Of a DNA stretch of 64,000 nt, positions 1,416 through 61,893 are shown piece by piece. This DNA is from Tsukamurella pulmonis (GTDB taxonomy: Bacteria; Actinomycetota; Actinomycetes; Mycobacteriales; Mycobacteriaceae), in NCBI RefSeq assembly GCF_900103175.1, contig NZ_FNLF01000002.1, positions 1,302,001-1,366,000 on the forward strand, in the 5' to 3' direction. Within the stretch, counting starts at the first letter, position 1. The number at the start of each line of letters is the position of its first letter. Under the pieces are notes generated by a model that was not told where the DNA came from, ran no database searches, and saw only the letters and a list, made by a program, of their open reading frames with translations. The position numbers were made by a program, and so were the translations under genes.

Positions 1416-1460
1416 ATGGAGTGGGGTTCCGACGGTGCCGCGGGCGGGAATGCTGAGGGC

Positions 1461-1901
1461 ATGACGATCCCCGTGCTCCTCGGTGCCTCCGCACTGCTCA
1501 ATGCGATCCTGGCCGGTTTCTACTTCGCGTACGCGACGGTGATCGCCGGGCAGCGCACCGCCGACGGGGGCGAGGCGATGGTCCGGATGAACGCGGCGGT
1601 CGAGCGGCCTCCGTTCATCGCGCTGTTCCTGGTCGCGCCCACGGCGGCGGCGCTCTCCTCCGTCTGGATCCTGGTGGCCGACGGTGCCCGTGCCGCCGGG
1701 ATCGTCGCGGCGATCGCCGCGGTCTGCGCCGTCGCCGCCTGTGTCTCGACGATGGCGGTGAACGTGCCGCTCAACCAGCGGCTCGCGGCGGGTGCCGTCG
1801 GCTGGCCGGAGTACGCCCGCACCTGGGGCACCTGGAACCTCGCGCGCACGTGGCTGTGCGCGCTCGCCGCCGTGGGGCTGGGCCTGGCGGCCCTGGCGTG
1901 A
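1461..1901 (+). CDS. DUF1772 (anthrone oxygenase-like) membrane protein
   Basis: 146 residues with four predicted membrane segments. The pattern fits the DUF1772 family: an N-terminal helix with FYFAYA, a central [11 protein letters not shown] stretch, then NVPLNQRLA and a W-x-x-W-N-x-x-R motif near the C-terminus ([11 protein letters not shown]). The family includes anthrone oxygenases, but most bacterial members have no known reaction. I chose ATG 1461 because the first hydrophobic helix starts there; an in-frame ATG at 1416 would add 15 unlikely residues and lies at the end of the inverted repeat. Stands alone between the membrane protein and the fumarase gene. Confidence 0.75.
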
Positions 1902-1968
1902 CGGGCACCGTCGGGCGTGGTTCCCGCAGGTAGGGCAGCCTAACCCGGGCGGCGGATCCGTCGGGGAA

Positions 1969-1974
1969 TACCCT
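1969..1974 (+). promoter_or_regulatory. -10 box TACCCT, probable leaderless promoter of class I fumarase
   Basis: TACCCT ends 6 nt before GTG 1981, so transcription would begin at or next to the start codon. No Shine-Dalgarno sequence is present. This supports GTG 1981 as the start. Confidence 0.5.
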
Positions 1975-1980
1975 CGATAC

Positions 1981-3805: not shown

Positions 3806-4387
3806 TCAGGCGGGGCGGAGGATCGTGACGGCGAAATCGGCGCCGTCGTGCCAGGGCTTGACGTCCCAGGTGGCCAGGCGCAGATCCGTGCGCAGCCCGG
3901 CGGCCGCGGCGTACTCGTCGAACCGATCCGGCGTGAGGCCGCGGTTCGTGTGGAACCCGACGATCGCGAAGCCCTCCGGCGTGAGGTGCTTGCGGAAGTT
4001 GGCGAGCACCGTCGTCTCCGTGCCCTCGGCGACGAAGACCATCACGTTCCCGGCGCAGACGATGGCGTCGAAGGTGCCGTCCACGTCCAGCTCGGCGAGG
4101 TCCTGCACCAGCCATCGCGGGCCCGGGTGATCCTGCTCGGCCGCGGCGATGAGCGTCGGATCCACGTCGACGCCGACCACGTCGTGGCCCACTGTGTGGA
4201 GGTACCCGCCGATCCGCCCGGGGCCGCAGCCCGCGTCCAGGATCCGCGAGTTCCGGCCCACCATCGCATCGACGAGGCGACCCTCACCGGCCAGGTCGGC
4301 CCCCTCGCGCGCCATCGTCCGGAACCGCTCGACGTACCACTCGCTGTGGCCTTCCTTGGTGTCCGTGAACCAGCGCGGCGTGCTCAT
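3806..4387 (-). CDS. Class I SAM-dependent methyltransferase
   Basis: 193 residues with the Rossmann-type methyltransferase fold. Motif I is ILDAGCGPGRIGGYL (about residues 48-62), the acidic loop after strand 2 is GVDVDP, and the post-III strand is FDAIVCAGNVM. No substrate-specific domain is present, so the methyl acceptor is unknown. The start is ATG 4387, 7 nt after a TAACTT -10 box; a longer frame would add arginine-rich residues that overlap the upstream inverted repeat. Convergent with the fumarase gene. Confidence 0.85.
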   Translation of the reverse strand: MSTPRWFTDTKEGHSEWYVERFRTMAREGADLAGEGRLVDAMVGRNSRILDAGCGPGRIGGYLHTVGHDVVGVDVDPTLIAAAEQDHPGPRWLVQDLAELDVDGTFDAIVCAGNVMVFVAEGTETTVLANFRKHLTPEGFAIVGFHTNRGLTPDRFDEYAAAAGLRTDLRLATWDVKPWHDGADFAVTILRPA

Positions 4388-4711: not shown

Positions 4712-5293
4712 GTGAGATGGAGAACAAGTTTCACGGCAATTCTCGGTGCGGCAGCCCTGGTGACGACCGGCTGCGGGGCCCAGGAGGCACCGTCGGACGA
4801 GGAACGCCAGGGTACGCACAGCGGGCAGGCACGGCTCAGTACCCCGGCCTTCACGGCCGAGCGCGCCAGCGACGGCCCCACCGGAACGCCGCTCTACGCG
4901 CGCCTGGCCGCTTCCAGCGCCGTCGGCGACACCGGGCAGGCCCTCACAGCGACGATCGCGGGCACCACTTACCGCAGCGCGACGGGGATCTGGATCGGCT
5001 GCGAGGGCACCGCCGCGACCGCCGTCTACCGCCTCGGCGGAGAGTTCGCCGCGCTCACCGGCGTGCTCGGGCTGCAGCCCCACACCCCGGAGCGGCTGCG
5101 CGTGCGGGTGTCGTTCATCGTCGACGGTGAGACGAGGCTGGCCACCACGCTCGCGCGCGACGAGCAGCCCCGGACCGTCTCGATCCCGCTCGACGGGGCC
5201 CGGGCGGTCACCGTCAGCGCCCTCGCGATCGCCGGCGAGTGCGCGCCCGCTCCGGCGCCCTACGGCGCGATCGGCGCGGCCTCCCTCGTCTGA
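4712..5293 (+). CDS. Secreted lipoprotein with an NPCBM-like region
   Basis: 193 residues. The N-terminus MRWRTSFTAILGAAALVTTGC is a lipoprotein signal with lipobox ending at Cys21. The mature part is acidic (QEAPSDEERQ), followed by a beta-rich domain with IAGTTYRSATGIWIGCEG, TAVYRLGGEFAALTGVLGL and VSIPLDGARAVTVSALAI. That order resembles NPCBM/NEW2-type carbohydrate-binding modules, but I am not sure of the assignment. It is likely anchored on the outer face of the membrane. The start is GTG, supported by the leaderless -10 box and the signal peptide. Convergent with fumC. Confidence 0.7.
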   Translation: MRWRTSFTAILGAAALVTTGCGAQEAPSDEERQGTHSGQARLSTPAFTAERASDGPTGTPLYARLAASSAVGDTGQALTATIAGTTYRSATGIWIGCEGTAATAVYRLGGEFAALTGVLGLQPHTPERLRVRVSFIVDGETRLATTLARDEQPRTVSIPLDGARAVTVSALAIAGECAPAPAPYGAIGAASLV

Positions 5294-6824: not shown

Positions 6825-7832
6825 TCAGTCGAAGATCTGCGCGTAGGTCTTCAGCTTGGTCAGGCGGTGCGTCGCGTCGACGGTGCGGACCGTACCGGAC
6901 TTGCTGCGCATCACGATCGACTGCGTGGTGGCACCGTCGGCGCGGTACTTCACTCCGCGCAGCAGGTCACCGTCGGTCACGCCGGTGGCGGCGAAGTAGA
7001 CGTGCTCGCCCCGCACCAGATCGGTGGTGCCGAGGACCTCGTTCGGGTCGATGCCCAGGTCCGCGAGGCGGTGCTTCTCCTCGTCGGACGACGGGGCCAG
7101 GGTGCCCTGCAGCTCGCCGCCCATGCAGCGCAGCGCGGCCGCGGCGATGATGCCCTCGGGGGTGCCGCCGATCCCGACGAGGATGTCGGTCTTGGCCTCG
7201 GGGCGGGCGGCGGCGATCGCGCCGGCCACGTCACCGTCGGAGATGAGGCGCACGATGGCGCCGGTCGCGCGGATGTCGGCGATGAGCTGCTCGTGCCGGG
7301 GGCGGTCGAGCACCGTCAGCGTGACGTCGGTGACCTTGATGCCCTTGGCCTTGGCGACCTTGGCGATGTTGTCGGCGATCGGCGCCTGGATGTCGATGAC
7401 GCCGGCGGCCTCGGGGCCCACGGCGATCTTGTTCATGTAGAACACGGCCGAGGGGTCGTACATGGCGCCGCGCTCGGCGACCGCGAGCACCGCGATCGAA
7501 CCGGGCATGCCCTTGGCCATGAGGGTGGTGCCGTCGACGGGGTCCACGGCGACGTCGGTCGACGGGCCGAAGCCGTTGCCCACCTCTTCGCCGTTGTAGA
7601 GCATGGGCGCCTCGTCCTTCTCGCCCTCGCCGATCACGACCACGCCGCTCATCGACACCGTCGAGACCAGCTGGCGCATCGCGTCCACGGCGGCGCCGTC
7701 GCCGGACTCCTTCTGGCCGCGTCCCACCCAGCGGCCCGCGGCGAGCGCGCCGGCCTCGGTCACGCGAACCAGCTCCATCGCCAGGTTCCGGTCCGGCGCG
7801 ATGGGGTTCTTCTCGGCGTGGGTGTCGGACAT
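6825..7832 (-). CDS. glpX: Class II fructose-1,6-bisphosphatase
   Basis: 335 residues. It hydrolyses fructose 1,6-bisphosphate in gluconeogenesis; in mycobacteria GlpX is the main FBPase. Metal and phosphate motifs are visible: [37 protein letters not shown], the YMNK loop and [18 protein letters not shown]. The start is ATG 7832, preceded by a strong GGAGGAA ribosome binding site. Between fumC and a divergent DUF4245 gene, as in M. tuberculosis. Confidence 0.96.
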
Positions 7833-7964: not shown

Positions 7965-8573
7965 GTGGCTGAGAAACCCCGCATCCTGCAGAACCGTCGC
8001 GACATGGTGCTCACGATGGTTCCGCTGATCGCCCTGTGCCTGATCGTGCTGTTCGCGTCGGGCAACTTCAAGCTCGGCTTCGGCGCCGATCCCAAGGACG
8101 AGACCGTCGACCCGATCAACCCCAAGGGCGTCTACCAGGTCTCGGCGGACACGCTCGGTTTCCCGGTCCGGATGCCGGGCGGGGCGGGCGTGGTCGACGG
8201 GGTGCCCGAGAGCTGGAAGGCCACGGCGACCCGCGACGACGACGTGGTCGGCGGCACGGTCTTCTCCGTCAATTACGTGACGCCCGAGAAGAATTCGCTG
8301 CAGCTCTCCCAGTCGGGGGCCCCGGTCGACGTGGTGCTCGAGTCGGTCTACGGCGCGAAGGCCGAGCCCTCGGGGACGGTCCCCGTCGAGGGGACGACCT
8401 GGCAGGTCTACGGACCCAACGACAAGAACCGCAGCGCCTGGGTCCTCCAGGTCGACGGTGCCGTCCTCGTCGTCTTCGGCGGCGGCACGGTGCCGCGGTT
8501 CACCGAGCTGGCCGCAGCCGTGCAGTCGCAGCAGCCGCTGCCGCGGTCCTCGGCGCCCGCCCCGGGCAAGTAG
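7965..8573 (+). CDS. DUF4245 membrane-anchored protein
   Basis: 202 residues: a short cytoplasmic N-terminus ([14 protein letters not shown]), one membrane helix ([18 protein letters not shown]), then an extracytoplasmic domain. Features include [36 protein letters not shown], and [20 protein letters not shown] followed by a C-terminal proline/serine tail. This is the DUF4245 family, which in Mycobacteriales is divergent from glpX (Rv1100 position). Function is unknown. The GTG start is 7 nt after a GATACT -10-like box, so it may be leaderless. Confidence 0.85.
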
Positions 8574-8793: not shown

Positions 8794-10079
8794 CGCTGCA
8801 CTTCCTCGGTTCGTACGGAGATCTTCTTCACGCCCATCACGGCGGCGTTCGCGGCGCCGTCGGGCACGCGGACCCGCAGCTGCGAGCCGGGCGCCAGGTC
8901 GTCGATGCTGCGGACCACGGGGTTCTCGCCGTCGGGCGTGACCTTCTGCACCACGGCGTAGCCACGGGCCATGGTCGCGGCCGGGCCGAGCGAGGTCAAT
9001 CGCGCGGCCAGGTGCCGCACCCCGTCGGATTCGCGTTCGACGGTGCGCCGCACGTCCCGCCGGACCTCGCGCAGCAGCCGCTCCACCTGCTCGGCCCGGT
9101 CGTCGACCAGACGCATCGGGTGGGCGAAGACGGGGCGCGAGCGCAGCGATTCGAGGGTGTGCGCCTCGCGGTCGACCCAGCCGCGCAGCGCGCCGGCCGC
9201 CCGGCGGCGCAGCTCGGCGATGCGATCGAGCTCTGCCACCACGTCGGGCACGACGCGCTTGGCGGCGTCGGTGGGCGTCGCGGCGCGCACGTCGGCGGCG
9301 AAGTCGCAGAGCGGGTTGTCCGGCTCGTGCCCGATGGCGGAGACGATCGGGGTGCGGGCGGCGTGCACGGCACGGCAGAGGGTCTCGTCGGAGAAGGGGA
9401 GCAGGTCCTCCACGCTGCCGCCGCCGCGGGCCAGGATGATCACGTCGACCTCGGGGTCGGCGTCCAGCGCGCGCAGCGCCGCCACCACCTGGGGCACGGC
9501 CGTCGGACCCTGCACGGTGGCGTACTCGGCGCGGATCCGCACGCCCGGCCAGCGGCCCTCCGCGATCGAGCGCACGTCGCGCTCGGCGGCGCTGGCCCGC
9601 GCCGTCACCAGTCCGACGGTGCGCGGTAGGAACGGCAGCGGACGCTTGAGCCGCTCGTCGAACAGGCCCTCGGCGTGCAGCAGTTGACGCAGTCGCTCGA
9701 TGCGGGCGAGCAGCTCGCCGACGCCGACGGCCCGGATCTCGGTGATCCGCAGCGAGAGGCTGCCGCGACCGGCCCAGTAGGTGAACTTGCCGCGCACGAT
9801 CACCTGGGTGCCCTCGTTGAGCGGCACCTCGGAGCGGTCGAGCACCGCCGGCAGGCAGGTCACCTGGACGGAGACGTTCGCCGACGGATCGCGGAGGGTG
9901 AGGAACGCGGTGCCGCCGCCGCGGCGGTTGAGCTGGGTGATCTGGCCCTCGACCCACACCTCGCCGAGCCGATCGATCCACTGCGCGATCTTCATCGAGA
10001 CCACGCGCACGGGCCACGGGTGCTCCGCAGTCGACGGTCCGCCCGATGCCGCGCCGCTGGTCGTCGCGGGTCCGGTCAC
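8790..10079 (-). CDS. xseA: Exodeoxyribonuclease VII large subunit
   Basis: 429 residues. The N-terminal OB-fold domain ([30 protein letters not shown]) binds DNA; the catalytic domain has the family signature [15 protein letters not shown], then [15 protein letters not shown] and [20 protein letters not shown] with the expected acidic residues; a coiled-coil region follows. GTG 10079 is chosen because it precedes the HPWPVR motif by the usual distance and overlaps the previous stop codon (GTGA). Middle gene of a three-gene overlapping operon with the Rv1109c-like gene and xseB. Confidence 0.95.
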
Positions 10080-10699
10080 CGGGTGATGCGGTTCTCGAGC
10101 ATCGTGAGGAACGGGGGCCGCGCCTTGTGGCCGCGCTCGTACTCGACGAGCGACTCCACCTCGGGGGTGGTCAGCCCGGGCAGCCGGCCGCGCAGCTGGG
10201 CCAGGGTGAGCTCGGGGTAGTCGATGCGCTGCGCGGCGGCGGGCAGGTCGTCGGCCGTCGCGGCGGGCGCTGCGGCATCCGCCGGCGCCGCCGCGGGGGT
10301 GCTGTACAGCGCGTACCGGCCGGCGCCCGACGGTGCCTGTTCCCCGGCGGTGGCCTCGGCGGCGGGCGCGGTCTCCGGCTCCGGCGCCGTCGCGGGCCGG
10401 ACGTCGCCGAAGGCGGTGCGGGCGGGCGCGGGCAGGTCGACGTCGACGTCCTCGTCGTCGTCGAAGGTCGCCCACGCGGCCTGCGCCTCCTGCTTCGCCG
10501 GGAAGACGGACTCGATCGCGCGATCGCCGCGCACGGCGAGATCGGCGAGGTCCTGCTGCACGTGGATGAACGCCTGCGCGGACTTGCTGCCCAGCGTGAG
10601 CGGGGCGTTCACGGCGCCCCCGACGATCTCCTGGCCCTTCTCGGCGGCGAGGGCGACGGCCCCGACGGCGACGCGGACCACGAACGGTAAACGGCTCAT
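10076..10699 (-). CDS. Rv1109c-like (lipid droplet-associated) protein
   Basis: 207 residues. The N-terminal ~70 residues are a conserved amphipathic region ([20 protein letters not shown], then [20 protein letters not shown] and [16 protein letters not shown]). A long alanine/proline-rich linker follows, and the C-terminus is a helical motif [21 protein letters not shown] then [18 protein letters not shown]. Position and ends match M. tuberculosis Rv1109c; homologues are annotated as lipid droplet-associated, from recollection. ATG 10699 is chosen because the conserved SRxPFVxR start follows. Its TGA overlaps the xseA GTG. Confidence 0.7.
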
Positions 10700-13685: not shown

Positions 13686-14768
13686 TTAACACTGTGAGAA
13701 CCGAGAATCTGCCGTCGTGGGAACGGGTCGCGGCGTCCGATCGAGGGCCGCCGGGGCGTCCCGCGCATCGCCGGGCATCGAGTCGAGATCCGCCAGCCGG
13801 CGCGCCGTGACACCGACGCGCGCGTTGTACGAGCCGACGGTGGTGTTGAACGCCTCGACGGTCTTGCCCAGGGCCGAACCCAGCGCAGAGAAGTGACTGT
13901 TGAGGACGTCGAACCGCTCGTTGAGTTCACGACCGAGCGCGTGGATGCGTGCGGCGTCCTCCCCGAGCGCGTGCTGGCGCCAGGTGAGCGCCACGGCGCG
14001 CAGCATCGCGACGAGGGTGGTGGGTGTGGCGAGTACCACATTCCGGTCGAGTGCGAATTCGAGCAGATCCGGATCGGCTTGTAGGGCCGCGTCGAGGAAG
14101 GCCTCGGCCGGGACGAACATCACCACCAGCTCCGGCGAGCCCACCGCCTCCCAGTACCGCTTGCCCGCGAGTTGCACGACGTGGGAGCGGAATCGCCGGG
14201 CGTGGTCCGAGAGCAGTGCGGCGTGCTCCGCCGGCGGTGCCTCCAACAACTGCAGGTAGGCATCGAGCGGGACCTTGGCATCGACCGCCAGATCGCGGCC
14301 GCCGGCGAGGTGGACCACGAGATCAGGGCGCACTCGCACCTCGCCGACGGTGCCGCCGTGCTGGGTGGAGAAGTCGCAGTGCCGGCTGAGCCCGGCCAGC
14401 TCGACCACGCGCTCGAGCTGCAGCTCACCCCAGCGGCCGCGCACGGTGGAGGACTTCATGGCCGAGCGCAGCGTGGCCGTCTCGGCGCGCAGCGCCTCAC
14501 TCGTGCGGGCGACGGTGCCGATCTGCTCCCGGAGTCCGGCGAACGCTGCCACGCGGGTGCGCTCCGCGACGGCGAACTCGTGGCCCAACGCGTCCAGCGT
14601 CTGCCGCAGCGGAGCGAGCAGGGCGTTCACGGGCCCGGCGACGGCATCGGGCGAGGCACCGCCCTCGGGCCGCCCGGACTGCGCCGGGAGCACCCGGGCC
14701 AGGATGATCCCCACGGCGCCGCCGACCAGGAGCGCCAGCAGCGCGACGATCAGATGCGAGAGGTCCAT
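13686..14768 (-). CDS. rmuC: RmuC-type DNA recombination protein
   Basis: 360 residues: one N-terminal membrane helix (LIVALLALLVGGAVGIILAR), a coiled-coil region, and the RmuC nuclease-like domain with RGRWGELQLERVVELAGL, RPDLVVHLAGGRDLAVDAKV and ELVVMFVPAEAFLDAAL. RmuC limits rearrangements at short inverted repeats in E. coli; its biochemical activity is unclear. The start is ATG 14768, just before the hydrophobic helix. It lies 32 nt after the AI-2E-type gene and is the last gene of a repair-flavoured operon. Confidence 0.88.
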   Translation of the reverse strand: MDLSHLIVALLALLVGGAVGIILARVLPAQSGRPEGGASPDAVAGPVNALLAPLRQTLDALGHEFAVAERTRVAAFAGLREQIGTVARTSEALRAETATLRSAMKSSTVRGRWGELQLERVVELAGLSRHCDFSTQHGGTVGEVRVRPDLVVHLAGGRDLAVDAKVPLDAYLQLLEAPPAEHAALLSDHARRFRSHVVQLAGKRYWEAVGSPELVVMFVPAEAFLDAALQADPDLLEFALDRNVVLATPTTLVAMLRAVALTWRQHALGEDAARIHALGRELNERFDVLNSHFSALGSALGKTVEAFNTTVGSYNARVGVTARRLADLDSMPGDARDAPAALDRTPRPVPTTADSRFSQC

Positions 14769-47391: not shown

Positions 47392-48030
47392 TCAGACGGT
47401 CAGGTGGATGCCCTCGTCGTCGACGGTGACCGTCACCGTCGTCAGGTCGTCGACCTGCACGTCGGGCGAGAAGCGCGCCGCCTGCGGGCCCACCCCGACC
47501 ACGCGCATCCCGGCGGCCCTCGCCGCGGTGGTGCCCGCCTCCGAATCCTCGAAGACGATGCAGTCGGCGGGGTCGAACCCGAGGAGCGCCGCGCCGCGCA
47601 GGAAGCCCTCGGGGTCGGGCTTGCTGGCGCGCACGTCCTCCGCGGTCACCCGCACCGCCGGCACCGGCAGGCCCGCTGCGCCCATGCGCGCCGTCGCCAG
47701 CGCGAGGTCCGCGGAGGTGACGAGGGCGTGCGGGGCACCGTCGAGCGCGGCGAGGAACGCGGGCGCGCCGGCGACGGGGACGATGCCCTCGGTGTCGGCG
47801 GTCTCCTGCGCGAGCAGCGCGCGGTTCTCCGCGAGGTTGACCTCGACGGGGCGGTCGGGCAGCAAATCCGCCATGGTGGCGTGCCCCTGGCGGCCGTGCG
47901 CGACGGCGAGCACCCGCGCCGGATCGAGGCCCTTCTCCCGGGCCCAGGCCGTCCAGCAGCGTTCGACGACGGCGTGCGAATCGACCAGTGTGCCGTCCAT
48001 GTCCAGCAGTAGAGCGCGGCCGGTGAGCAT
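47392..48030 (-). CDS. HAD-IA family phosphatase
   Basis: 212 residues. Motif I LLLDMDGTLVDSHAVVERCW (nucleophile Asp in DMDGT), motif II LVTSADLALA, motif III ASKPDPEGFLRGAALLG and motif IV CIVFEDSEAGTTAARAAGM. It is close to sugar-phosphate phosphatases such as 2-deoxyglucose-6-phosphatase. Substrate not decided by sequence. ATG 48030 has GAGGAGGAA upstream. Lies downstream of the sigma factor on the opposite-facing side of a short gap. Confidence 0.92.
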   Translation of the reverse strand: MLTGRALLLDMDGTLVDSHAVVERCWTAWAREKGLDPARVLAVAHGRQGHATMADLLPDRPVEVNLAENRALLAQETADTEGIVPVAGAPAFLAALDGAPHALVTSADLALATARMGAAGLPVPAVRVTAEDVRASKPDPEGFLRGAALLGFDPADCIVFEDSEAGTTAARAAGMRVVGVGPQAARFSPDVQVDDLTTVTVTVDDEGIHLTV

Positions 48031-48092: not shown

Positions 48093-49100
48093 TCAGCGAG
48101 GGACGACGAGGTCGTCCGTCAACTCCCCGAGATGCACGGCGCCCGCCAGCCCCATGGCGTGCCGGAGGTCGTCGTGGAGCCCCGCCAGCAGGGCTGCGAC
48201 GCCGTCACCGCCCGAGTCCGCCAGGGCCCACAGGACCGGGCGGCCGACGAAGACCGCGTCCGCGCCGAGCGCGAGCGCGGCCAGCGCGTCCAGGCCGCCG
48301 CGGACATCGCCGTCCACCAGGACCCGCGCTCGCTGTCCGACGGCCGCGGCGATCCACGGCAGCGCCTGCGACGGCGCGACGGTGCGGCCGAGCTGCCGCC
48401 CGCCGTGATCGCTCACCCACACGCCGGCCGCGCCTGCGTCGACGCAGCGCCGGGCCTCGTCGGCGCGCAGCACGCCCTTGACGATCACCGGGAGGCCCGT
48501 GAGGTCGGCGAGCCGGCCGATGTCATCCAGGACGGCACCGGCGTCCTGCTCGATAGCGGTCCACGCGTCGGCGCCGGGCGGCAGGTGCTGGGCGACGTTG
48601 ACGAGGGCCAGGTCGTCGTCCAGCGGTGGCAGCCCGCGGCCGCCGGAGCGTCCCACGTACGGGGTGTCGCCGGTGAGGACCAGCGCCGTCGCACCCGCCG
48701 CGGCGGCGCGCTGCACGAGCGCATCGGTGATGCCGCGGTCCCGCATGAGGTAGACCTGCTGCCACCACGGCCCACCGGCCGCCGCGGCGACCTCCTCGAT
48801 CCGGGTTGTCGCGCGCATGGACAGCACGAACGGGGCGCCGCAGGCAGCCGCGGCGCGGGCCACCGCCGCCTCGCCGCCGGTATGCACGAGGCGGTGGAAC
48901 GCAGTCGGGGCCACGCCGATGGGGGAGCGCCAGTCGCCGAAGACACTCGCCGAGGTGTCGATCGACCGGACATCGCGCAGTACCCGCGGCATGAATCGCC
49001 ATCGCTCCCAGGGTGACTCGCCGTCGGTCGCGCCGCGCATCAGATAGGCCCAGACGTCGGGTGCGAGTACCCGTTCCGCCCGCGCTGCGAGTTCGATCAT
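48093..49100 (-). CDS. FMN-dependent alpha-hydroxy-acid oxidase/dehydrogenase
   Basis: 335 residues of the LldD/glycolate oxidase family, slightly short. Seen: PIGVAPTAFHRLVHTGGEAA, FVLSMRATTRIEEVAAAAGG, PWWQQVYLMRDRGITDALVQ, the catalytic loop VSDHGGRQLGRTVAPSQALP (active-site His in DHGGR) and VLVDGDVRGGLDALAALALG (phosphate-binding). It oxidises an L-2-hydroxy acid to the keto acid. The classical SNHGGRQLD reads SDHGGRQLG here, so substrate choice is unclear. Confidence 0.88.
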   Translation of the reverse strand: MIELAARAERVLAPDVWAYLMRGATDGESPWERWRFMPRVLRDVRSIDTSASVFGDWRSPIGVAPTAFHRLVHTGGEAAVARAAAACGAPFVLSMRATTRIEEVAAAAGGPWWQQVYLMRDRGITDALVQRAAAAGATALVLTGDTPYVGRSGGRGLPPLDDDLALVNVAQHLPPGADAWTAIEQDAGAVLDDIGRLADLTGLPVIVKGVLRADEARRCVDAGAAGVWVSDHGGRQLGRTVAPSQALPWIAAAVGQRARVLVDGDVRGGLDALAALALGADAVFVGRPVLWALADSGGDGVAALLAGLHDDLRHAMGLAGAVHLGELTDDLVVPR

Positions 49101-52385: not shown

Positions 52386-53425
52386 TGGGACAGCTGACCG
52401 GCCCCACCGACCCGAGTGCCGACGCGCACTGGCACGTGCACGAGGCCCGTCGCGGCTTCTTCACGGACACGTCCATCTGCATCGGCTGCAAGGCGTGCGA
52501 GGTGGCCTGCAAGGAGTGGAACCGGAACCCGCGCGACGGCGACCTCGAGCTCACCGGCATGTCCTACGACAACACCGTCGCGCTCGGCGCCAGCACCTGG
52601 CGGCACGTGGCGTTCATCGAGCAGGACCGCGAGAGCATCGAGCGCGCCCGCGAATCCGGCCGCGCGCTGGTCGGTCTCGGCATGCCCGCCGTGCGCGGCG
52701 CCGCGCCGGTGAGCGCGGAGACGCCTGCGGGCGAGACCATGCCGGCGTGGGGCGAGGCCGACGTGACCCCGCCCGACACCCCGGAGTTCCGCTGGCTCAT
52801 GTCCTCCGACGTGTGCAAGCACTGCACCCACGCGGGGTGCCTCGACGTGTGCCCGACCGGCGCGATGATGCGCACCGAGTTCGGCACCGTCGTGGTGCAG
52901 AACGACATCTGCAACGGCTGCGGCACCTGCGTGGCCGGCTGCCCCTTCGGCGTCGTCGAGCGGCGCAGCGACGGCACCGTCGCCCCGACGGTCCGCGAGG
53001 GGCACCGCAAGGGCGAGCAGCCGCCGGTGGACAACCGCGGGATCGCCCAGAAGTGCACCCTCTGCTACGACCGGCTCCGTGATGATGAGACGCCGGCGTG
53101 CGCCAAGACCTGTCCCACCACGTCGATCAAGTTCGGCGAGCGCGAGGAGATGGTGGCGACGGCCCGCGAGCGCGTCGCGCAGCTGCACGCGCAGGGCATG
53201 ACCGAGGCGCGGCTGTACGGCGCGAACGACGACGACGGGGTGGGCGGCACCGGTTCGGTGTTCCTGCTGCTCGACGAACCCGAGGTGTACGGCCTGCCGC
53301 CCGACCCGCGGGTGTGCACCGCCGACCTGATGACCATGTACAAGCGCGCCGGCACCGCCGCCGCCGGCATGATCGCCGCGGCCGCGGTCTCGTTCCTCTC
53401 GGCGCGGAAGAAGGGCCGCCGGTGA
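52385..53425 (+). CDS. fdhB: Formate dehydrogenase iron-sulfur (beta) subunit
   Basis: 346 residues. Four ferredoxin-type cysteine clusters: CIGCKACEVACKEWNRNP (residues ~32-49), CKHCTHAGCLDVCPTGAM, CNGCGTCVAGCPFGVV, and CTLCYDRLRDDETPACAKTC. These carry electrons from the Sec/Mo site to the membrane. A C-terminal hydrophobic helix (AAAGMIAAAAVSFLSARKKG) can anchor it. An insertion of about 60 residues rich in Ala, Glu and Pro separates clusters 1 and 2. GTGA overlap links it to the next gene. Confidence 0.94.
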   Translation: MGQLTGPTDPSADAHWHVHEARRGFFTDTSICIGCKACEVACKEWNRNPRDGDLELTGMSYDNTVALGASTWRHVAFIEQDRESIERARESGRALVGLGMPAVRGAAPVSAETPAGETMPAWGEADVTPPDTPEFRWLMSSDVCKHCTHAGCLDVCPTGAMMRTEFGTVVVQNDICNGCGTCVAGCPFGVVERRSDGTVAPTVREGHRKGEQPPVDNRGIAQKCTLCYDRLRDDETPACAKTCPTTSIKFGEREEMVATARERVAQLHAQGMTEARLYGANDDDGVGGTGSVFLLLDEPEVYGLPPDPRVCTADLMTMYKRAGTAAAGMIAAAAVSFLSARKKGRR

Positions 53426-54510
53426 CCAGCTCCGAGTTCGACCAGTTCCGCCCGCCCCGGCCCGAGCGGCGCGGTAGGCGCGGCGACGGCTCCGGCAGGC
53501 GTCGCCGCCCCGACGACCTGATGGTGCCCGAGGCCGTGATCGAGCACGTCGACGGCTACTACGGCCACCCGATCGTGAAGCCGCCACCGTGGGAGGCGCC
53601 CGTCGGCGCGTACCTGTTCCTGGGCGGCGTCGCCGGCGGCTCGGGCCTGCTCGCCGCGGGCGCACAGCTCGCGGGGTACCCCGCGTTGCGCCGCAACGCC
53701 CGCCTCGCCGGTCTCGGCGCCGCGGGCGTCGGCGCGCTGGCGCTCGTCGCGGATCTCGGTCGCCCCGAACGCTTCCTGCACATGATGCGCACCTTCAAGG
53801 TGACCTCGCCGATGAGTGTCGGCTCGTGGATCCTCTCGGGCTACAGCGGTCTGATCGGCGTCGCCGCGGCGGCGGAGGTGGACCGGTTCCTGGGGGAGCG
53901 GCTCCCGCTCGGCCCCCTGCGGGCGGTGCTCCGGTTCGGTGAGGCGCCGGCGGGGCTCGGCGCGGCGGTCTTCGCGACGCCGCTGGCCGCCTACACCGCG
54001 GTGCTCCTGGCGGACACAGCGATGCCCACCTGGAACGCCGCCTACCGCGACCTGCCCTTCGTCTTCGTCAGCTCGGCGAGCCTGGCCGCCGGTGGCCTGG
54101 CCCTGGTGACCACGCCCGCGGACGAGGCCGCGCCCGCCCGGAACCTCGCCGTTCTCGGCGTGATCGGCGACGTGGCCGCGACCCGGATCATGGAGTCCCG
54201 CATGGACTCCGTGGCGGCCGAGCCCCTGCATCACGGCACCCCCGGGAAACTCATGCGCTGGGCCGAGCGGCTCGCGGTCGCCGGCGGCGTGGGCGCGCTC
54301 CTCACGGGAGGTCGTCGGGGTCGGGTCCGACGGTGCCTCGCCGCCCTGTCCGGGGGTGCGCTCATGGCGGCCTCGGCCTGCACCCGCTTCGGGGTCTTCG
54401 AGGCCGGTCTCGAGTCGGCCAATTACCCGCGCTACACCATCGAACCGCAGAAGCGGCGCCTCGCGGCCCGCCGCGCGGCGGGGAACACGGGCGACTCGAT
54501 CACCGGATGA
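53422..54510 (+). CDS. NrfD-type membrane subunit of formate dehydrogenase
   Basis: 362 residues. A basic N-terminus (RPERRGRRGDGSGRRRR) is followed by YYGHPIVKPPPWEAPVGAYL, LFLGGVAGGSGLLAAGAQLA and LGRPERFLHMMRTFKVTSPM, all typical of NrfD/PsrC quinone-reactive subunits with about eight helices. It replaces the cytochrome b subunit found in E. coli FdnI and should pass electrons to menaquinone. The 3' end overlaps selD by 11 nt, convergently. Confidence 0.92.
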   Translation: MTSSEFDQFRPPRPERRGRRGDGSGRRRRPDDLMVPEAVIEHVDGYYGHPIVKPPPWEAPVGAYLFLGGVAGGSGLLAAGAQLAGYPALRRNARLAGLGAAGVGALALVADLGRPERFLHMMRTFKVTSPMSVGSWILSGYSGLIGVAAAAEVDRFLGERLPLGPLRAVLRFGEAPAGLGAAVFATPLAAYTAVLLADTAMPTWNAAYRDLPFVFVSSASLAAGGLALVTTPADEAAPARNLAVLGVIGDVAATRIMESRMDSVAAEPLHHGTPGKLMRWAERLAVAGGVGALLTGGRRGRVRRCLAALSGGALMAASACTRFGVFEAGLESANYPRYTIEPQKRRLAARRAAGNTGDSITG

Positions 54511-55562: not shown

Positions 55563-55569
55563 GGTCGGC

Positions 55570-55710: not shown

Positions 55711-56997
55711 GTGACGGACCCCCGCAGGCGGATTCCGCGCACCGACCGGCTGCTCGGCGCGCCCGCGATGGTCGCCGCGAGCGAGCGCCTCGGCGAGCGC
55801 CGGGTGCGCGCCGCGATCGCCGCCGCCCAGGACGCCGCGCGCCGCGGGGATCTCGATCCCGACGCGGTCGCCGCGACCGTGGAGCGCGACCTCGCCACGG
55901 CCTCGCCGGCGTCCCTGCGCCCCGTCCTGAACGCGACCGGCGTCGTGGTGCACACCAACCTGGGCCGCGCGCCGCTCTCGGGCGCCGCGGTCACGGCCCT
56001 CGTGGACGCCGCCGGCTACACCGACGTCGAACTGGACCTCGGCACCGGCACCCGCAGCAAGCGCGGGGTGGCGGCGCGGGCCGCCCTGCTCGCCGCGTGC
56101 CCCGCGGCGGAGGAGGCGCTGGTGGTCAACAACGGCGCGGCCGCCCTGGTCCTCGCCACCACCGCGCTGGCGGCGGGGCGCGAGGTGGTGATCAGCCGGG
56201 GCGAGCTGATCGAGATCGGCGCCGGCTTCCGCCTGCCGGACCTCATCGCCTCCACCGGTGCGCGGCTGCGCGAGGTGGGCACCACCAACCGCACCCACGC
56301 CCGCGACTACGCCGAGGTGATCGGGCCGGAGACCGGGTGCGTGCTCAAGGTGCACCCCAGCAACTTCCGGGTGGAGGGCTTCACCGCGGACGTTCCGCTG
56401 GAAGAGCTCCGCGCCGTGTGCGGCGACGTGCCGCTCGTGATGGATCTCGGCAGCGGACTGCTCGCCGCCGATCCCGCGCTGCCCGGCGAGCCCGACGCCG
56501 CGTCCGCGCTCGCCGCGGGCGCCGACCTCGTGACCGCCAGCGGCGATAAGCTGCTGGGCGGACCCCAGGCCGGAATCCTGCTCGGCCGCGGCGAACTCGT
56601 CACCCGCCTGGCCCGCCACCCGCTCGCCCGCGCGGTCCGCGCCGACAAGCTCGTGCTCGCCGCACTGGAGGCCACCGTGGGTGGGCCGGAGGCGCCCGTG
56701 CTCGCCTACCTGCACGCCGACCCCGCGGTGCTGCGCCGCCGCGCGGAGCGACTGGCCGAACGCGTGGGCGGCACCGTCGTCCCGCACGACGGCCGGGTCG
56801 GTGGGGGTGGCGCACCCGGAGTCCCGCTACCGGGCTGGGCCGTCCGCCTGCCCGAGGAGATCGCCGCCCCGCTGCGGGCCGGGGAGCCGCCGGTGCTGGC
56901 ACGCCTGTCCGACGGTGCCTGCCTGCTCGACCTGCGCTGCGTCCCCGAGGATTTCGACGGGGCCGTGGCGGAGGCGGTGCTCGCATGCACGTCGTAG
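55711..56997 (+). CDS. selA: L-seryl-tRNA(Sec) selenium transferase
   Basis: 428 residues. It converts Ser-tRNA-Sec to Sec-tRNA-Sec with selenophosphate. PLP lysine is K280 in SGDKLLGGPQAG; other motifs are RPVLNATGVVVHTNLGRAPL, DVELDLGTGTRSKRG, VNNGAAALVLA and KVHPSNFRVEGFT. GTG 55711 follows AGGAGG at good distance. It starts 46 nt after tRNA-Sec and may share its transcript. Overlaps selB by 13 nt. Confidence 0.96.
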   Translation: MTDPRRRIPRTDRLLGAPAMVAASERLGERRVRAAIAAAQDAARRGDLDPDAVAATVERDLATASPASLRPVLNATGVVVHTNLGRAPLSGAAVTALVDAAGYTDVELDLGTGTRSKRGVAARAALLAACPAAEEALVVNNGAAALVLATTALAAGREVVISRGELIEIGAGFRLPDLIASTGARLREVGTTNRTHARDYAEVIGPETGCVLKVHPSNFRVEGFTADVPLEELRAVCGDVPLVMDLGSGLLAADPALPGEPDAASALAAGADLVTASGDKLLGGPQAGILLGRGELVTRLARHPLARAVRADKLVLAALEATVGGPEAPVLAYLHADPAVLRRRAERLAERVGGTVVPHDGRVGGGGAPGVPLPGWAVRLPEEIAAPLRAGEPPVLARLSDGACLLDLRCVPEDFDGAVAEAVLACTS

Positions 56998-58766
56998 CCA
57001 CCGCCGGCCACGTCGATCACGGCAAGTCAACGCTGGTGCGGTCCCTGACCGGGATCGAGCCCGATCGCTGGGTCGAGGAGCGGCGTCGTGGGCTCACCAT
57101 CGACCTCGGATTCGCCTGGACGGCACTGCCGTCCGGGCGGGAACTGGCTTTCGTCGACGTCCCCGGCCACGAGCGCTTCCTGGGCAACATGCTGGCCGGG
57201 CTCGGCCCGGTGCCGGTGGTCTGCTTCGTGATCGCTGCCGACGAGGGGTGGAGCGCGCAGTCGGACGATCACCGCGACGCCGTGGCGGCGCTGGGGATCG
57301 AGCACGGCCTGATCGTGATCACCAAGGCGGACCGCGCGCCCGACCGAGTGGACGCCGTGCGCGATCAGGCGCGCCGCAACCTCGCCGGAACAGGCTTGGC
57401 GGACGCTCCCGTCGTGGCCGTCTCCGCCGTCACCGGCGCCGGCCTGGACGAGCTGCGCACTGGGCTCGACGCCGTGCTCGACGACCTCCCCGAGCCCGAT
57501 CAGAAAGCGCGCGTACGGATCTGGATCGACCGGGCGTTCTCCATCGTCGGGGCAGGCACCGTGGTCACGGGCACCGTGCCCGCCGGCACCGTGCGGGTGG
57601 GCGACGAGCTGGAGCTGCTCGGCGCACGCGGTGCTCGCCGGGTCACCGTGCGCGGCCTGCAGCGGCACGGCGTCGCCGAGGAAGCGGTCGGACCGGTCTC
57701 CCGGCTGGCGGTGAACCTGCGGGGCGTGGCGGTCGAGGAGATCCACCGAGGGGACGCGCTGCTCACGCCCGGTCAGTGGCCGGCCACCGGCGTCGTCGAC
57801 GTGCGCGTCTCCCGCGCGGACGACGATGCGGTGCTCCCGGAGTGGCTGACAGTGCACGCCGGTACCGTCGCCGTCCCGGCCCGCGTGCGGCCGTTCGGAG
57901 ACGACCACGCCCGGCTCACCCTCGCGCGGGCACTTCCGCTGGCCGCGGGCGATCCGCTCGTACTGCGCGATCCGGGGGCCAAGCGGATCGTGGGCGGCGC
58001 GCGGGTGCTCGACGCGGATCCGCCGACGCTGCGGCGCCGAGGCGACGGTGGGCGGCGGGCGAGCGCCCTCGCCGGGCGCGGCACCGAGGGTGACCTGCTC
58101 GCCGAGGTCGCGCGCCGCGGTGCGGTGCGGCGCGAGCGGCTCGACGATCTGGGTTTCGGCGACGAGGTCCCGGACGGGGTGCGCGTGGCCGGCGCGTGGT
58201 GGATCCACGACGCGGCCCTGGACGGCTGGCAGGCCCGCCTGCGTGGGGCGGTCGCCGATCTGCACGCACGCGATCCCCTGGCGGCGGGCCTGTCGCTGGG
58301 CGCGGCGCGCGAGGCGCTCGAGCTGCCCGATCCGGCGCTGCTGTCAACGGTGCTCGACGGTGCCGGACTCGAGTCCGACGGGGGCAGGCTCGCCCTCCCC
58401 GGACACCGCACGGACCTCGGGCCGGCGGAGTCGGGCGTCGCCGAGATCGAACGCCGCCTGGCGCGAACGCCCTTCGCCGCGCCGGAGGCCGACGACCTGG
58501 CGGCGCTGCGGCTCGGTCCGCGCGAGCTCGCGGCGGCCGAGCGGGCGGGGAGATTGCTCCGCGTGGCGGACGGAGTCGTGCTCGCGCCGCACGCCCCCGC
58601 GCTGGCCATGCGGGAGCTCGCCGCGCTGTCGCAGCCCTTCACGGTCTCGCAGGCGCGGCAGGCGCTCGGCACCAGCCGCCGGGTCGCGGTGCCTCTGCTG
58701 GAGCTGCTCGACGGCCGCGGGTGGACGCGGCGGATCGATGCGGGACGGCGTGAGGTCGCTCGGTGA
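56985..58766 (+). CDS. selB: Selenocysteine-specific elongation factor
   Basis: 593 residues. It delivers Sec-tRNA-Sec to the ribosome at UGA codons marked by a SECIS hairpin. GTPase motifs: G1 GHVDHGKSTLV (residues ~8-18), G2 RRRGLTIDLGFAW, G3 DVPGHERFLGNMLAGLG, G4 ITKADRA. EF-Tu-like domains 2-3 follow, then a C-terminal set of winged helices (from about residue 380, ending LGTSRRVAVPLLELLDGRGW) that bind the SECIS RNA. Overlaps selA by 13 nt, so the two are coupled. Confidence 0.96.
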   Translation: MHVVATAGHVDHGKSTLVRSLTGIEPDRWVEERRRGLTIDLGFAWTALPSGRELAFVDVPGHERFLGNMLAGLGPVPVVCFVIAADEGWSAQSDDHRDAVAALGIEHGLIVITKADRAPDRVDAVRDQARRNLAGTGLADAPVVAVSAVTGAGLDELRTGLDAVLDDLPEPDQKARVRIWIDRAFSIVGAGTVVTGTVPAGTVRVGDELELLGARGARRVTVRGLQRHGVAEEAVGPVSRLAVNLRGVAVEEIHRGDALLTPGQWPATGVVDVRVSRADDDAVLPEWLTVHAGTVAVPARVRPFGDDHARLTLARALPLAAGDPLVLRDPGAKRIVGGARVLDADPPTLRRRGDGGRRASALAGRGTEGDLLAEVARRGAVRRERLDDLGFGDEVPDGVRVAGAWWIHDAALDGWQARLRGAVADLHARDPLAAGLSLGAAREALELPDPALLSTVLDGAGLESDGGRLALPGHRTDLGPAESGVAEIERRLARTPFAAPEADDLAALRLGPRELAAAERAGRLLRVADGVVLAPHAPALAMRELAALSQPFTVSQARQALGTSRRVAVPLLELLDGRGWTRRIDAGRREVAR

Positions 58767-59079: not shown

Positions 59080-60078
59080 TCACGGGCGGTGGCCGCGCAC
59101 CAGTCGATCACCCTCGGTCGTGCGCCGGTAGAGCACCTCGCGCCCGCTCCGGGCTCGGTCGATCAGGCCGTTCTCGTAGAGCACCCGCAGGCTCTGGGAC
59201 ACCGCCGAGGGGGAGATCTCCAGCCGGCGCGCCACTTCGCTCACGGCCACGGGCTCGTCGAGCGCGTGCAGCACGTCGGCCTTCGCCCCGCCGATCAAGC
59301 GCCGCAGCGCCCCGGGCGGCACCTCGCGCACCGATTCCGTGAGGGTCGCGCTGCCCCGGGCCGGATAGCCCACGTGCGGCGCCGCCGTTTCCGGCGAGTG
59401 GGCGCTCACCAGCCGGGTGAGGAAGACGCTGGGAATGAGCACCAGTCCGCGTCCCGCCGTGGCGTACTCGCCCGCATCGCGTGCGTAGGCCAGGTCCAGG
59501 CGCAACCGCCCGTCGCGATCCCAGCTCAGGTTGGGGTTGAGCGAGGCGAACAGCTGCGTCGGGCCGCCGAGCGCGAGCTCGCGCCCGCGGAAGGTGACGT
59601 CCGCCTCCAGGATCCGATTGACCGCGGGCCAGATCGGGGCGATCGTCACCCGGTGGTAGCGCTCCAGCGCGCCGGCGATGCGCGGGCCCGCCCGCTCGGG
59701 ATCGTCGAGCAATCGGGCCAGTGCCGGCGACGGATCGGCGCCCTCGCGCAGCTCGTCGAGTTGGGTGTGGATGAGTGCCGGATCGGTCTCCGCGATCGCC
59801 GTCAAACCCTCCGTGAGCGACGGGCGCGATACCCCGGGCTCGGGCACCGGGGTCAGGAAGTCCGGGATCGCCTTGCCCGACGGTGCGATCAATGCGCTGA
59901 TCAACCGGTGGTCGTAGCGATCGCTCTGCGCACGCGCGTTCTCGCGCCAGCGATGCAGATGCGCGGCGCCGTCATGCTCGGAGTTCAGGTGGAACAGGCT
60001 CAGCGCCGTCTCGTTCAGCGGGGCGAGCACGAAGCGCACGTCCGACAGGTCGCGGACGTCGAGCACGTAGGTCAGCAT
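59080..60078 (-). CDS. ArsR-type transcriptional regulator with DUF5937-like domain
   Basis: 332 residues. The C-terminal ~85 residues form a winged helix: GGAKADVLHALDEPVAVSEV, ARRLEISPSAVSQSLRVLYE, NGLIDRARSGREVLYRRT. The large N-terminal part (VLDVRDLSDVRFVLAPLNET; LSNPNLSWD-like LFASLNPNLSWDRDGRLRLD) fits the DUF5937 domain found in actinomycete ArsR-like regulators. The ligand is unknown. No metal-binding cysteines are evident. Confidence 0.82.
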   Translation of the reverse strand: MLTYVLDVRDLSDVRFVLAPLNETALSLFHLNSEHDGAAHLHRWRENARAQSDRYDHRLISALIAPSGKAIPDFLTPVPEPGVSRPSLTEGLTAIAETDPALIHTQLDELREGADPSPALARLLDDPERAGPRIAGALERYHRVTIAPIWPAVNRILEADVTFRGRELALGGPTQLFASLNPNLSWDRDGRLRLDLAYARDAGEYATAGRGLVLIPSVFLTRLVSAHSPETAAPHVGYPARGSATLTESVREVPPGALRRLIGGAKADVLHALDEPVAVSEVARRLEISPSAVSQSLRVLYENGLIDRARSGREVLYRRTTEGDRLVRGHRP

Positions 60079-60150
60079 GACCAGACGAGCTTACGACCGG
60101 CCGGCGGGAATCGTTGCCGATTCGCCTGTCCCGCCGGGCCGGTCGGGCGA

Positions 60151-60624
60151 TCAGGAGGGCGCGTCGGTGTAGTAGGGCGTTTGGCCCTGCGCGAGCTTCC
60201 ATCGGGTCCACAGGTGCATGTTGATCACGGCCGCCGCGACGTCCTTGATCTGCTCGATCGTGAAGTGCTCGGTCATCGCCTGGTGGAAGCGGTCGAAATC
60301 ATCGGTGTTCGGCACGGTGAGCGCATCGCAGTACCGCAGCGCGGTCTTCTCCGCCTCCGTGAACAGGTCGGAGTTCGCGTACGAGGTGAGGCCGTCGATC
60401 TTGGCCTGCGGGATCTGGTTGTCGCGCGCCGATTGCCCGTGCAGGATGTTGCAGAACGCGCAGCCGTTCACCTGGGAGACCCGCAGCCGTAGGAGTTCGG
60501 CGAGCTTCGGTTCGACGGACAGTTCGGCGGTGTAGCCGACCGCCTCGGCGAGGGGCTTGGCGGCTTCGTTGAACGGGTGCCCTTCGGGATCGAAGCGGGT
60601 GTTCTTGTACGCGATCTCGGACAC
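60151..60624 (-). CDS. AhpD-like carboxymuconolactone decarboxylase family protein
   Basis: 157 residues. The AhpD-like active-site helix is RLRVSQVNGCAFCNILHGQS, with the Cys-x-x-Cys pair and a His four residues later; EAEKTALRYCDALT and IKDVAAAVINMHLWTRWKLA follow. Such proteins act as alkylhydroperoxidases or thiol-disulfide reductases. GTG 60624 is preceded by AAGGGAG; TACGGT at 60665-60660 (minus) may be its -10 box. Confidence 0.88.
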   Translation of the reverse strand: MSEIAYKNTRFDPEGHPFNEAAKPLAEAVGYTAELSVEPKLAELLRLRVSQVNGCAFCNILHGQSARDNQIPQAKIDGLTSYANSDLFTEAEKTALRYCDALTVPNTDDFDRFHQAMTEHFTIEQIKDVAAAVINMHLWTRWKLAQGQTPYYTDAPS

Positions 60625-60708
60625 GGGGTGCTCCCTTGCTCGTCGTGGAATCCTCCCTCACCGTATTTTGCGATCCGCACAACGGCAAGCTCCGCGCGGA
60701 GCGCCCGC

Positions 60709-61893
60709 TCACCGAGGCGTGCGGCTGACGGCGCGCAGGAGGGAGGGGCCGACGACCGGCGCGGTCAGCATCCGGATCATGAGGTTCTGCGCGCCGAGGT
60801 GCAGCCGACTCGGCGGCGCGAACCGCGCCATCCCCGCGCGCGCGTGGCGCTGGCGCGCAGCGACTTCCGGCCGCAGGTCCTCCTCCCACGAGCGCAGCGC
60901 CGCCGCGACGTCGCCCGGGCGGTCCGCGATCGCGCGACCCAATCGGTCGGCACCGGCGAGTGCGAGGCCCGCGCCGTGCCCCGCGAACACCGAGACGCAC
61001 CAGGCGGCGTCGCCGAGCAGGACCACGCGGCCCGCGCTCCACGCGCCCATGACCACCTGGCTCACGGTGTCGAAGTACGCGCCGTCGACGCCGGCGGACC
61101 GTCGCACCGCCTCGTGCACCGATCCCGACAGGTCCCCGAAGTGCGCGGCCAGTGCGGTCGCGGTCCCGCCCGCCACGTCGGCCGACGCGGATGTCGTTCG
61201 GTAGGTGAAGAACGCCGACGGGACGCCCCGGCGGGGGCGGAACACGGCCGCCGTGCGGCCCACGTCGATGAAGGTGGCCGCGGTCTGCTCCGGCAGCGCC
61301 GCGGGCGGCGGATCGAGCGGGAACGCGGCCACGACGTGGTCCAGATCGCGGATGTACCCGCCCGGCGGGCCGAAGGCCAGATCGCGGACCCCCGAGTGCA
61401 GCCCGTCGGCTCCGACGAGCAGGTCCACCTTGTGCTCGGTGCCGTCGCTGAGGGTGATGCGCAGCGGCCCGTCGGGCGGCCCGTCGATCCCGGTGACGGT
61501 GGTGCCGAACCGGATCGGTGCACCGTCGTCGAGGGCGTCGTGCAGGACCGCCTCGAGATCGCCCCGGAAGAGGGTGAGTGCGCGCGATCCGAGTGACTGT
61601 TCGGCGAGGGCCGCCGGCATGGTGAGCTTCGTGCTGCCGTCGGCGCGGACGAGCACCGAGGAGAAGATCCCTTGGTCCCGATCCCGGAGTGCTGGGACCA
61701 GGCCCAGTGCTTCGGCGGCGTCGAACCCCGGCCCGAGGAGGTTGACCAGGTAGCCGCCGGTCCGACGCGCCGGGGCGCGCTCGATGAGGAGGACGTGGTG
61801 CCCGTCGCGGCGCAGGCGCAGTGCCGCCGCGAGGCCCGCGATCCCCGCGCCGGCGATCAGGATGCGCAGTGGGCTGTCGGTGTCGTCCGGCAC
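60709..61893 (-). CDS. FAD-dependent monooxygenase (PHBH/TetX-like)
   Basis: 394 residues. FAD motif ILIAGAGIAGLAAALRLRRD at the N-terminus, then the DG-type stretch KVDLLVGADGLHSGVRDLAF and the second FAD motif GRVVLLGDAAWCVSVFAGHG AGLAL region. It likely hydroxylates an aromatic or antibiotic-like compound with NAD(P)H and O2. GTG 61893 follows GAGGAGGAA. Divergent from a TetR regulator; two tandem operators sit just upstream of its start, so it is probably repressed by that protein. Confidence 0.9.
   Translation of the reverse strand: MPDDTDSPLRILIAGAGIAGLAAALRLRRDGHHVLLIERAPARRTGGYLVNLLGPGFDAAEALGLVPALRDRDQGIFSSVLVRADGSTKLTMPAALAEQSLGSRALTLFRGDLEAVLHDALDDGAPIRFGTTVTGIDGPPDGPLRITLSDGTEHKVDLLVGADGLHSGVRDLAFGPPGGYIRDLDHVVAAFPLDPPPAALPEQTAATFIDVGRTAAVFRPRRGVPSAFFTYRTTSASADVAGGTATALAAHFGDLSGSVHEAVRRSAGVDGAYFDTVSQVVMGAWSAGRVVLLGDAAWCVSVFAGHGAGLALAGADRLGRAIADRPGDVAAALRSWEEDLRPEVAARQRHARAGMARFAPPSRLHLGAQNLMIRMLTAPVVGPSLLRAVSRTPR

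Follow-up and report, generated by a model that had tools for sequence, protein, structure and literature searches.

To our knowledge, DNA uptake sequences are known solely from Neisseriaceae and Pasteurellaceae. Those of Neisseria are described as conserved, located at permissive sites of the core genome and absent from recent acquisitions (PMC2397512). Here we describe the nonamer CGACGGTGC, which is found in both orientations throughout a 64-kb window (the whole stretch of DNA analyzed) of Tsukamurella pulmonis. From its pattern in the genomes, this nonamer is probably the DNA uptake sequence of the genus Tsukamurella, kept by biased uptake.

An earlier note, made from the window alone, had already pointed to DNA uptake sequences (DUS). 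Like those of Neisseriaceae, the nonamer is a short non-palindromic word, present in both orientations, specific to a lineage (0.17-0.82 per kb in Tsukamurella) and conserved amid slightly variable neighbourhoods (features taken from PMC3630211 and PMC2397512). However, its sequence is unrelated, its host is an actinobacterium, inverted pairs are rare, scarcity in acquired DNA is less clear, and no ComP-like receptor is known. With the uptake signal sequence (USS) of Pasteurellaceae it shares a nine-base core and an origin by substitution rather than insertion, as described in PMC1626085. Sequence and host differ there too, and no AT-rich or periodic flanks like those of the Haemophilus USS were found around the core. 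Much of the Tsukamurella pattern agrees with the account given for Neisseria in PMC2397512, absence from acquisitions being only partly seen. The proposed resemblance stood for lineage specificity, orientations, reading frames, synonymous maintenance, permissive neighbourhoods and the presence of ComEA, ComEC and Flp genes, but use in terminator arms is a minor feature and the picture for acquired DNA is mixed.

Abundance of the nonamer and its distribution in the genus

The high density of the nonamer in the window was confirmed. There are 57 copies, 27 on the plus and 30 on the minus strand (table 1), close to one per kb, and CGACGGTGC is the top-ranking 9-mer of the window by copy number. 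Its core is CGACGGTG, with C preferred as the last base, and GACGGCGC has 35 copies across the window. A hand count in the earlier note had given about 57 nonamers, which is exact, and about 63 octamers (orientations 28 and 35), which is slightly off, since 64 are present (29 plus, 35 minus); all 22 octamer positions quoted there are correct. Its estimate of about two random nonamers agrees with the 1.9 expected from base composition. Markov models of order 1, 2 and 3 predict 3.9, 5.5 and 8.7 copies. Orders 5, 6 and 7 predict 23, 40 and 52, but are no valid test of the excess because they include the motif's own subwords. The whole genome (4.78 Mb, two contigs) holds 2855 nonamers (1410 + 1445), against 71 copies of the reversed control word. 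At 0.89 per kb the window exceeds the genome-wide average of 0.60 per kb (genome densities were computed from rounded genome sizes). A protein of the window has its closest named relatives in Tsukamurella (91-97% identity, with 97% to T. spumae), on which the genus assignment in this analysis was based.

Codon usage does not account for these numbers. Synonymous-codon shuffling of 71 crude gene calls in the window gave 8.2 +/- 2.3 expected nonamers, with 51 seen in coding sequences (CDS), and among 9-mers with at least 8 copies there, CGACGGTGC is the most over-represented. As the earlier note had remarked, the motif is spread over different reading frames: all six exceed the shuffling expectation, although three of them hold just 1-3 copies. 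Frames made of rare codons are included (GCA CCG TCG, 5 copies against 0.11 expected; CGA CGG TGC, 2 against 0.03). In the coding part of a 464-kb sample of the T. pulmonis genome, 241 nonamers were found against 41 under shuffling, while the 27 single-substitution variants occur at 0.24-3.0 times expectation, so the word is sharp.

With shuffling only, ratios of seen to expected copies are 5.7-8.0 in Tsukamurella and 1.5-2.5 in Nocardia, Rhodococcus, Gordonia and Mycobacterium. Because of this residual in the related genera, a stricter, junction-aware model was applied, which draws every codon conditional on the amino acid, the two preceding bases and the following base, on slightly different gene calls. 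In both comparisons the genus groups comprised 18 of 23 loci for Nocardia (without the short ones), 17 for Rhodococcus (Rhodococcoides and Prescottella included, L005 and L010 excluded), all 10 for Gordonia and 13 of 16 for Mycobacterium (Mycolicibacterium included). This model expects 17 nonamers in the window, where 50 are seen, and 68 in 400 kb of the T. pulmonis genome, where 191 are seen. The ratio is 2.8-3.2 in this genome and 10 congeners and 1.8 in one further congener (G008); for the four related genera it is 0.98, 1.28, 1.11 and 1.10. The excess is understated, because the model partly learns the motif itself.

Two other compositional features were seen in called CDS of T. pulmonis. 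CCACGGTGC, one base off the motif, is four-fold depleted in the 464-kb sample (7 against 28.8 expected in 393 kb of called CDS), and in a sample of the genome six-base C/G runs are very scarce (CCCCCC, 31 against 766 under codon shuffling).

The excess is concentrated in Tsukamurella. In a search of 61 genomes, all 16 of this genus carry 827-4002 copies (0.17-0.82 per kb), while the 45 other relatives carry 51-713. The word is thus shared by a lineage and is not over-represented in its near relatives, as expected of an uptake sequence. The lowest Tsukamurella densities belong to G007 and G008. A different dialect in these low-copy genomes was considered and dropped: G008 holds the same word (45 copies against 14 expected), and G007 was read over 12 kb. 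Among 396 genomes of the phylum, in which T. pulmonis is the sole Tsukamurella, the densest other is G120 (0.27 per kb; 453 copies in 1.7 Mb). It was rejected as a second motif-rich lineage, as its junction-aware count (33 against 26) is near expectation.

Maintenance and gain of the word at synonymous sites

Orthologous DNA of 14 congeners was aligned to the window (80 kb each for 10 of them and 18-41 kb for 4; G007 was left out), with a mean identity of 0.853. Of 469 nonamer comparisons, 241 show no change (site bootstrap 0.42-0.60); the identical fraction for 9-mers in general is 0.30.

Synonymous positions offer the cleanest test. The rare glycine codon GGT is kept according to its context. 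In CGAC-GGT-GC, congeners retain GGT at 85 of 117 glycine codons (16 sites; site bootstrap 0.58-0.84), compared with a background of 228 of 1204 where no AC precedes. Partial contexts fall in between or near this background: 47 of 93 for the core without its last C, 3 of 19 for GAC-GGT-G, 15 of 48 for GAC-GGT and 7 of 41 for AC-GGT. The word is also gained. Where T. pulmonis has GGC in the full context, a single change short of the motif, 25 of 66 congener codons read GGT (9 sites; bootstrap 0.18-0.60). For GGC elsewhere the figure is 781 of 8343, which makes conversion of a near miss to the motif about four times as frequent. The alanine frame behaves similarly: in GCA-CCG-TCG, 26 of 44 congener codons retain GCA (5 sites), compared with 13 of 70 where just CCG follows, 74 of 395 where C follows and 37 of 358 in the remaining contexts. 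GCC one step off the motif corresponds to GCA in 12 of 33 cases (3 sites), the background being 172 of 8607. With 15 genomes pooled as reference the GGT contrast is 824/1287 against 2454/13056, and GAC.GGT.G ranks first in retention (0.58; next 0.33, median 0.19) of the 15 GGT contexts that have 25 sites or more. Since keeping and gain of GGT and GCA depend on the motif context, selection or drive favours the word, and the nonamer is actively maintained in Tsukamurella.

The flanks within 50 bp of the motif are slightly less conserved than the alignment as a whole (0.825 and 0.831 identity). Gaps at motif sites (9 of 440 comparisons) are about as frequent as in the background (1225 of 74075, 1.7%); therefore, copies arise via substitution and not insertion. 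Conserved copies, permissive surroundings and origin by substitution are all properties of uptake sequences.

Competence genes and the tad locus

ComEC is encoded in all 16 Tsukamurella genomes, and in T. pulmonis (G000) a ComEA-like protein with SLBB and HHH regions adjoins it. A Flp/Tad locus was detected in 15 of the 16; none was found in G007, an assembly of 890 contigs. TadA through TadE/G matched together in eight of the 15 (G001, G002, G003, G006, G012, G013, G014 and G015), with TadZ truncated at a contig end in G003 and split over three matches in G014. The genes that we take to be TadZ, TadB, TadC, Flp and TadE/G were so labelled from gene order and general knowledge, and in T. pulmonis also from matches to T2SSF, DUF4244 and Tad profiles. 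The machinery that an uptake sequence calls for is encoded: ComEC and, in eight genomes, tad genes from TadA to TadE/G, with the ComEA-like protein seen in T. pulmonis.

In six of the 15 (G000, G004, G005, G008, G009 and G011) the TadA match stops at about codon 337 of 393. The interrupted gene of T. pulmonis (tadA, which encodes the Flp-pilus ATPase) lies at G000:C2:595832-632090 (L232, L213, L230). In this and four other interrupted genomes the last ~60 codons are displaced by 15-43 kb, and a phage-type integrase 90-100% identical to the T. pulmonis one is located 2.2-2.3 kb from the distal fragment; in G008 neither such an integrase nor a second tadA fragment was found. In G010 TadA is intact, no pilin or TadE/G match was present in the 18 kb read, and a recombinase-like gene was recognized there by eye.

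The interruptions suggest a hot spot of repeated integration within tadA, a likely competence gene. Mobile elements are reported to insert repeatedly into comM, comFA, comYC or comK, with transformation argued to be the target (PMC4774983), and tad genes are reported as needed for transformation of the actinobacterium Micrococcus luteus (PMC4322843; review PMC6370729). By the logic of the former and the requirement in the latter, the pilus used for competence in Tsukamurella is likely the tad pilus.

Layout of the copies and weight of the alternatives

Copies are spread almost at random, as the spacing check suggested in the earlier note showed (coefficient of variation 0.95 in T. pulmonis and 1.04 in congeners; variance/mean 1.35 in 5-kb bins). 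The density is 0.41 per kb in intergenic DNA and 0.61 in CDS of the 464-kb sample, and 0.70 and 0.73 in congeners. The lack of strand bias noted earlier was borne out. In 904 kb no signal of replication polarity was found, with 253 copies leading and 241 lagging (p 0.62), and in the origin-proximal half 126 run with and 102 against replication (p 0.13). Relative to transcription, 221 copies are sense and 218 antisense in the same 904 kb. The origin was placed near contig ends by inference from genes of contig C1. This contig was considered as a plasmid, but its pknB, penicillin-binding and FtsW-type genes were taken as chromosomal and it was not used as plasmid evidence.

Inverted pairs less than 60 bp apart number six among the 272 copies of the T. 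pulmonis sample, of which just 24406/24440 is intergenic, and 12 among the 623 copies of an 858-kb congener sample, of which five are intergenic. The pair 24406/24440 had been read as terminator arms. It has no T-run after it and is a minor feature; no terminator enrichment of the motif was found, nor do its copies cluster between genes. Elsewhere, four nonamers 25 bases apart were observed outside called genes in G010 (L156:4139-4222).

Table 1. Positions of the nonamer in the 64-kb window
Feature	Position	Strand	Remark
nonamer	1430..1438	+	outside called CDS
nonamer	1679..1687	+	
nonamer	1905..1913	-	outside called CDS
nonamer	4006..4014	-	
nonamer	4787..4795	-	
nonamer	6878..6886	+	
nonamer	6931..6939	-	
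nonamer	8453..8461	+	
nonamer	9038..9046	+	
nonamer	9614..9622	+	
nonamer	10328..10336	+	
nonamer	14345..14353	+	
nonamer	14510..14518	+	
nonamer	16215..16223	+	
nonamer	16436..16444	-	
nonamer	17754..17762	-	
nonamer	18132..18140	+	
nonamer	20760..20768	-	outside called CDS
nonamer	21034..21042	+	
nonamer	21585..21593	+	
nonamer	23373..23381	-	outside called CDS
nonamer	24406..24414	+	intergenic inverted pair, left arm
nonamer	24440..24448	-	intergenic inverted pair, right arm; similar pairs in L104, L146
nonamer	26817..26825	-	
nonamer	31082..31090	+	
nonamer	31759..31767	-	
nonamer	32204..32212	-	
nonamer	32714..32722	-	
nonamer	33158..33166	-	
nonamer	33177..33185	+	
nonamer	35223..35231	-	
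nonamer	36594..36602	-	
nonamer	36690..36698	-	
nonamer	37082..37090	+	
nonamer	37213..37221	-	
nonamer	38350..38358	+	
nonamer	38523..38531	-	
nonamer	39718..39726	+	
nonamer	40064..40072	+	
nonamer	41468..41476	-	
nonamer	42341..42349	-	
nonamer	43293..43301	-	
nonamer	43689..43697	-	
nonamer	44313..44321	-	
nonamer	45138..45146	-	
nonamer	45553..45561	+	
nonamer	46174..46182	+	
nonamer	47735..47743	-	
nonamer	48377..48385	+	
nonamer	52884..52892	-	
nonamer	52974..52982	-	
nonamer	54328..54336	+	
nonamer	56771..56779	-	
nonamer	56910..56918	+	
nonamer	58355..58363	+	
nonamer	59878..59886	+	
nonamer	61520..61528	-	

The window also contains a selenocysteine cluster (49221-58766) with tRNA-Sec (55570-55665), SelD/SelA/SelB-like genes, judged by eye from the sequence, and a formate-dehydrogenase-like gene that was called as two pieces (49221-49787 and 49857-52385) and may contain an in-frame TGA.

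The nucleoid-protein, methylation and recombination-signal options raised earlier fit less well than an uptake sequence. It is unlikely that the word is the site of a genus-specific DNA-binding or modifying protein (a nucleoid protein, or an orphan methyltransferase as for HIP1), directly selected at each position, although conservation at synonymous sites, the near-random spread and a low-copy island with the usual ratio of seen to expected copies are what such an intracellular cause would produce. HIP1 of cyanobacteria, which is similar in its extreme abundance across a lineage, is described as a palindrome tied to orphan methyltransferases (PMC4390886). In contrast, CGACGGTGC differs from its own reverse complement, and of the two methyltransferase families searched neither is conserved in the genus: PF01555 is present in 4 and PF00145 in 14 of the 16 Tsukamurella, and G012, with 3261 copies, has neither. 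Selection would moreover have to be effective at each of ~2900 separate sites.

Somewhat less plausible still is a Chi-like recombination hot spot, read inside the cell by an enzyme of the RecBCD/AdnAB type. The nonamer is similar to Chi sites in being an over-represented short non-palindromic word, and the Tsukamurella phage TPA2 is moderately rich in it. In E. coli an oriented word is expected to read one way on each replication arm, whereas the balanced counts given above leave the Tsukamurella word without polarity, also in the origin-proximal half. Over-representation as such is reported for Chi-type words too (PMC4390886).

Another exchange route, namely distributive conjugal transfer by ESX secretion, is known in mycobacteria, and any exchange that favours motif-bearing alleles should yield the same genome pattern. 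It is nevertheless improbable that the word is the drive signal of that route rather than of free-DNA uptake, as we know of no sequence preference in distributive conjugal transfer and the recurrent breakage of tadA points to a pilus. The least credible account is that the word results from biases in codon usage, codon pairs and dinucleotides that come with a GC-rich genome: junction-aware modelling doubles the expectation and explains the word in the four related genera, but with the threefold excess left over, the surplus in rare-codon frames and the context-dependent conservation of GGT and GCA, such bias is refuted as a full account by synonymous-site conservation and the junction-aware model.

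For a DNA uptake sequence, scarcity in acquired DNA is partly shown and the picture is mixed. In two-kb bins below 66% GC, 84 kb in total, 8 copies occur. This is 2.1 times what a second-order Markov model predicts, whereas bins above 69% GC reach 7.2-7.3 times. The ~35-kb mobile element inserted in tadA has 5 copies in the 31.7 kb read, while the adjoining 8.3 kb holds 7. Phages TIN2, TIN3 and TIN4 carry 4 nonamers each in 76-77 kb.

Several observations weigh against uptake as the cause. Phage TPA2 (L200, HM486077.1) has 17 nonamers in 61.4 kb, more than the 1-10 of eight related Gordonia and Mycobacterium phages, taken from 40 among the matches listed (1617 matching records), though in its first 50 kb the nonamer is outranked by three other 9-mers that occur 8 times or more. 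The 40-kb island L097+L198 (65.5% GC) has few copies (6), all in called CDS, but 1.2 are expected from its own codons, and this ratio of 5.1 is close to that of the genome sample (5.4). In the window, density shows no trend with conservation (0.77, 1.37, 0.69 and 1.00 per kb in stretches aligned to 0-2, 3-5, 6-8 and 9-10 of 10 congeners, respectively). Intergenic inverted pairs, which are common among Neisseria DUS, are rare (one in 464 kb of T. pulmonis, five in 858 kb of congeners). The single near-miss site with GCG gave GCA in none of 4 cases, the 14 congeners are interrelated, so that their comparisons are not independent, and the gene calls are our own and crude. The tadA of T. pulmonis is itself interrupted, and by eye copy number shows no clear link to tad intactness among the Tsukamurella genomes. 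The integrase family is also found away from tadA, which is therefore not its sole site: G000 has another copy (95%), and copies also lie in G012 (91%), where tadA is intact, and on contig C321 of G007 (96%). Finally, the combination of comEA/comEC and tad genes is described as frequent in Actinobacteria (PMC4322843), and gene presence therefore cannot explain the restriction to one genus.

On balance, we infer biased uptake as the force that maintains the nonamer, with the Flp pilus, ComEA and ComEC as the machine. A putative surface receptor of this competence apparatus would bind the nonamer on free DNA, and fragments bearing it would be taken up and recombined more often, so that alleles with the nonamer would spread and displace those without it. 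Point mutation and recombination could then raise the number of copies to thousands, at sites where the encoded protein permits the change. The wider proposal, that this is the first DNA uptake sequence outside Proteobacteria, a nonamer read by a Flp-pilus machine, which mobile elements counter by repeated insertion at one codon of the gene for the pilus ATPase, seems to us slightly favoured by the genomic evidence.

In the open-access literature of PubMed Central, Tsukamurella and natural transformation nowhere appear together, and no actinobacterial uptake sequence is reported in the titles and abstract starts of the papers listed. A whole-word search with four spellings of the octamer matched just GCACCGTC, once each in two papers that by title are Shiga-toxin cell studies, where it is probably part of primers.

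If the nonamer is indeed an uptake sequence, self-DNA recognition in transformation would have arisen independently in high-GC Gram-positives, in a host that differs from Neisseria and Haemophilus in envelope and pilus. Natural transformation would then be a means of gene exchange in Tsukamurella, a near relative of Mycobacterium and Nocardia, and the motif would be a means to find the receptor. Whether and how Flp pili select DNA becomes directly testable.

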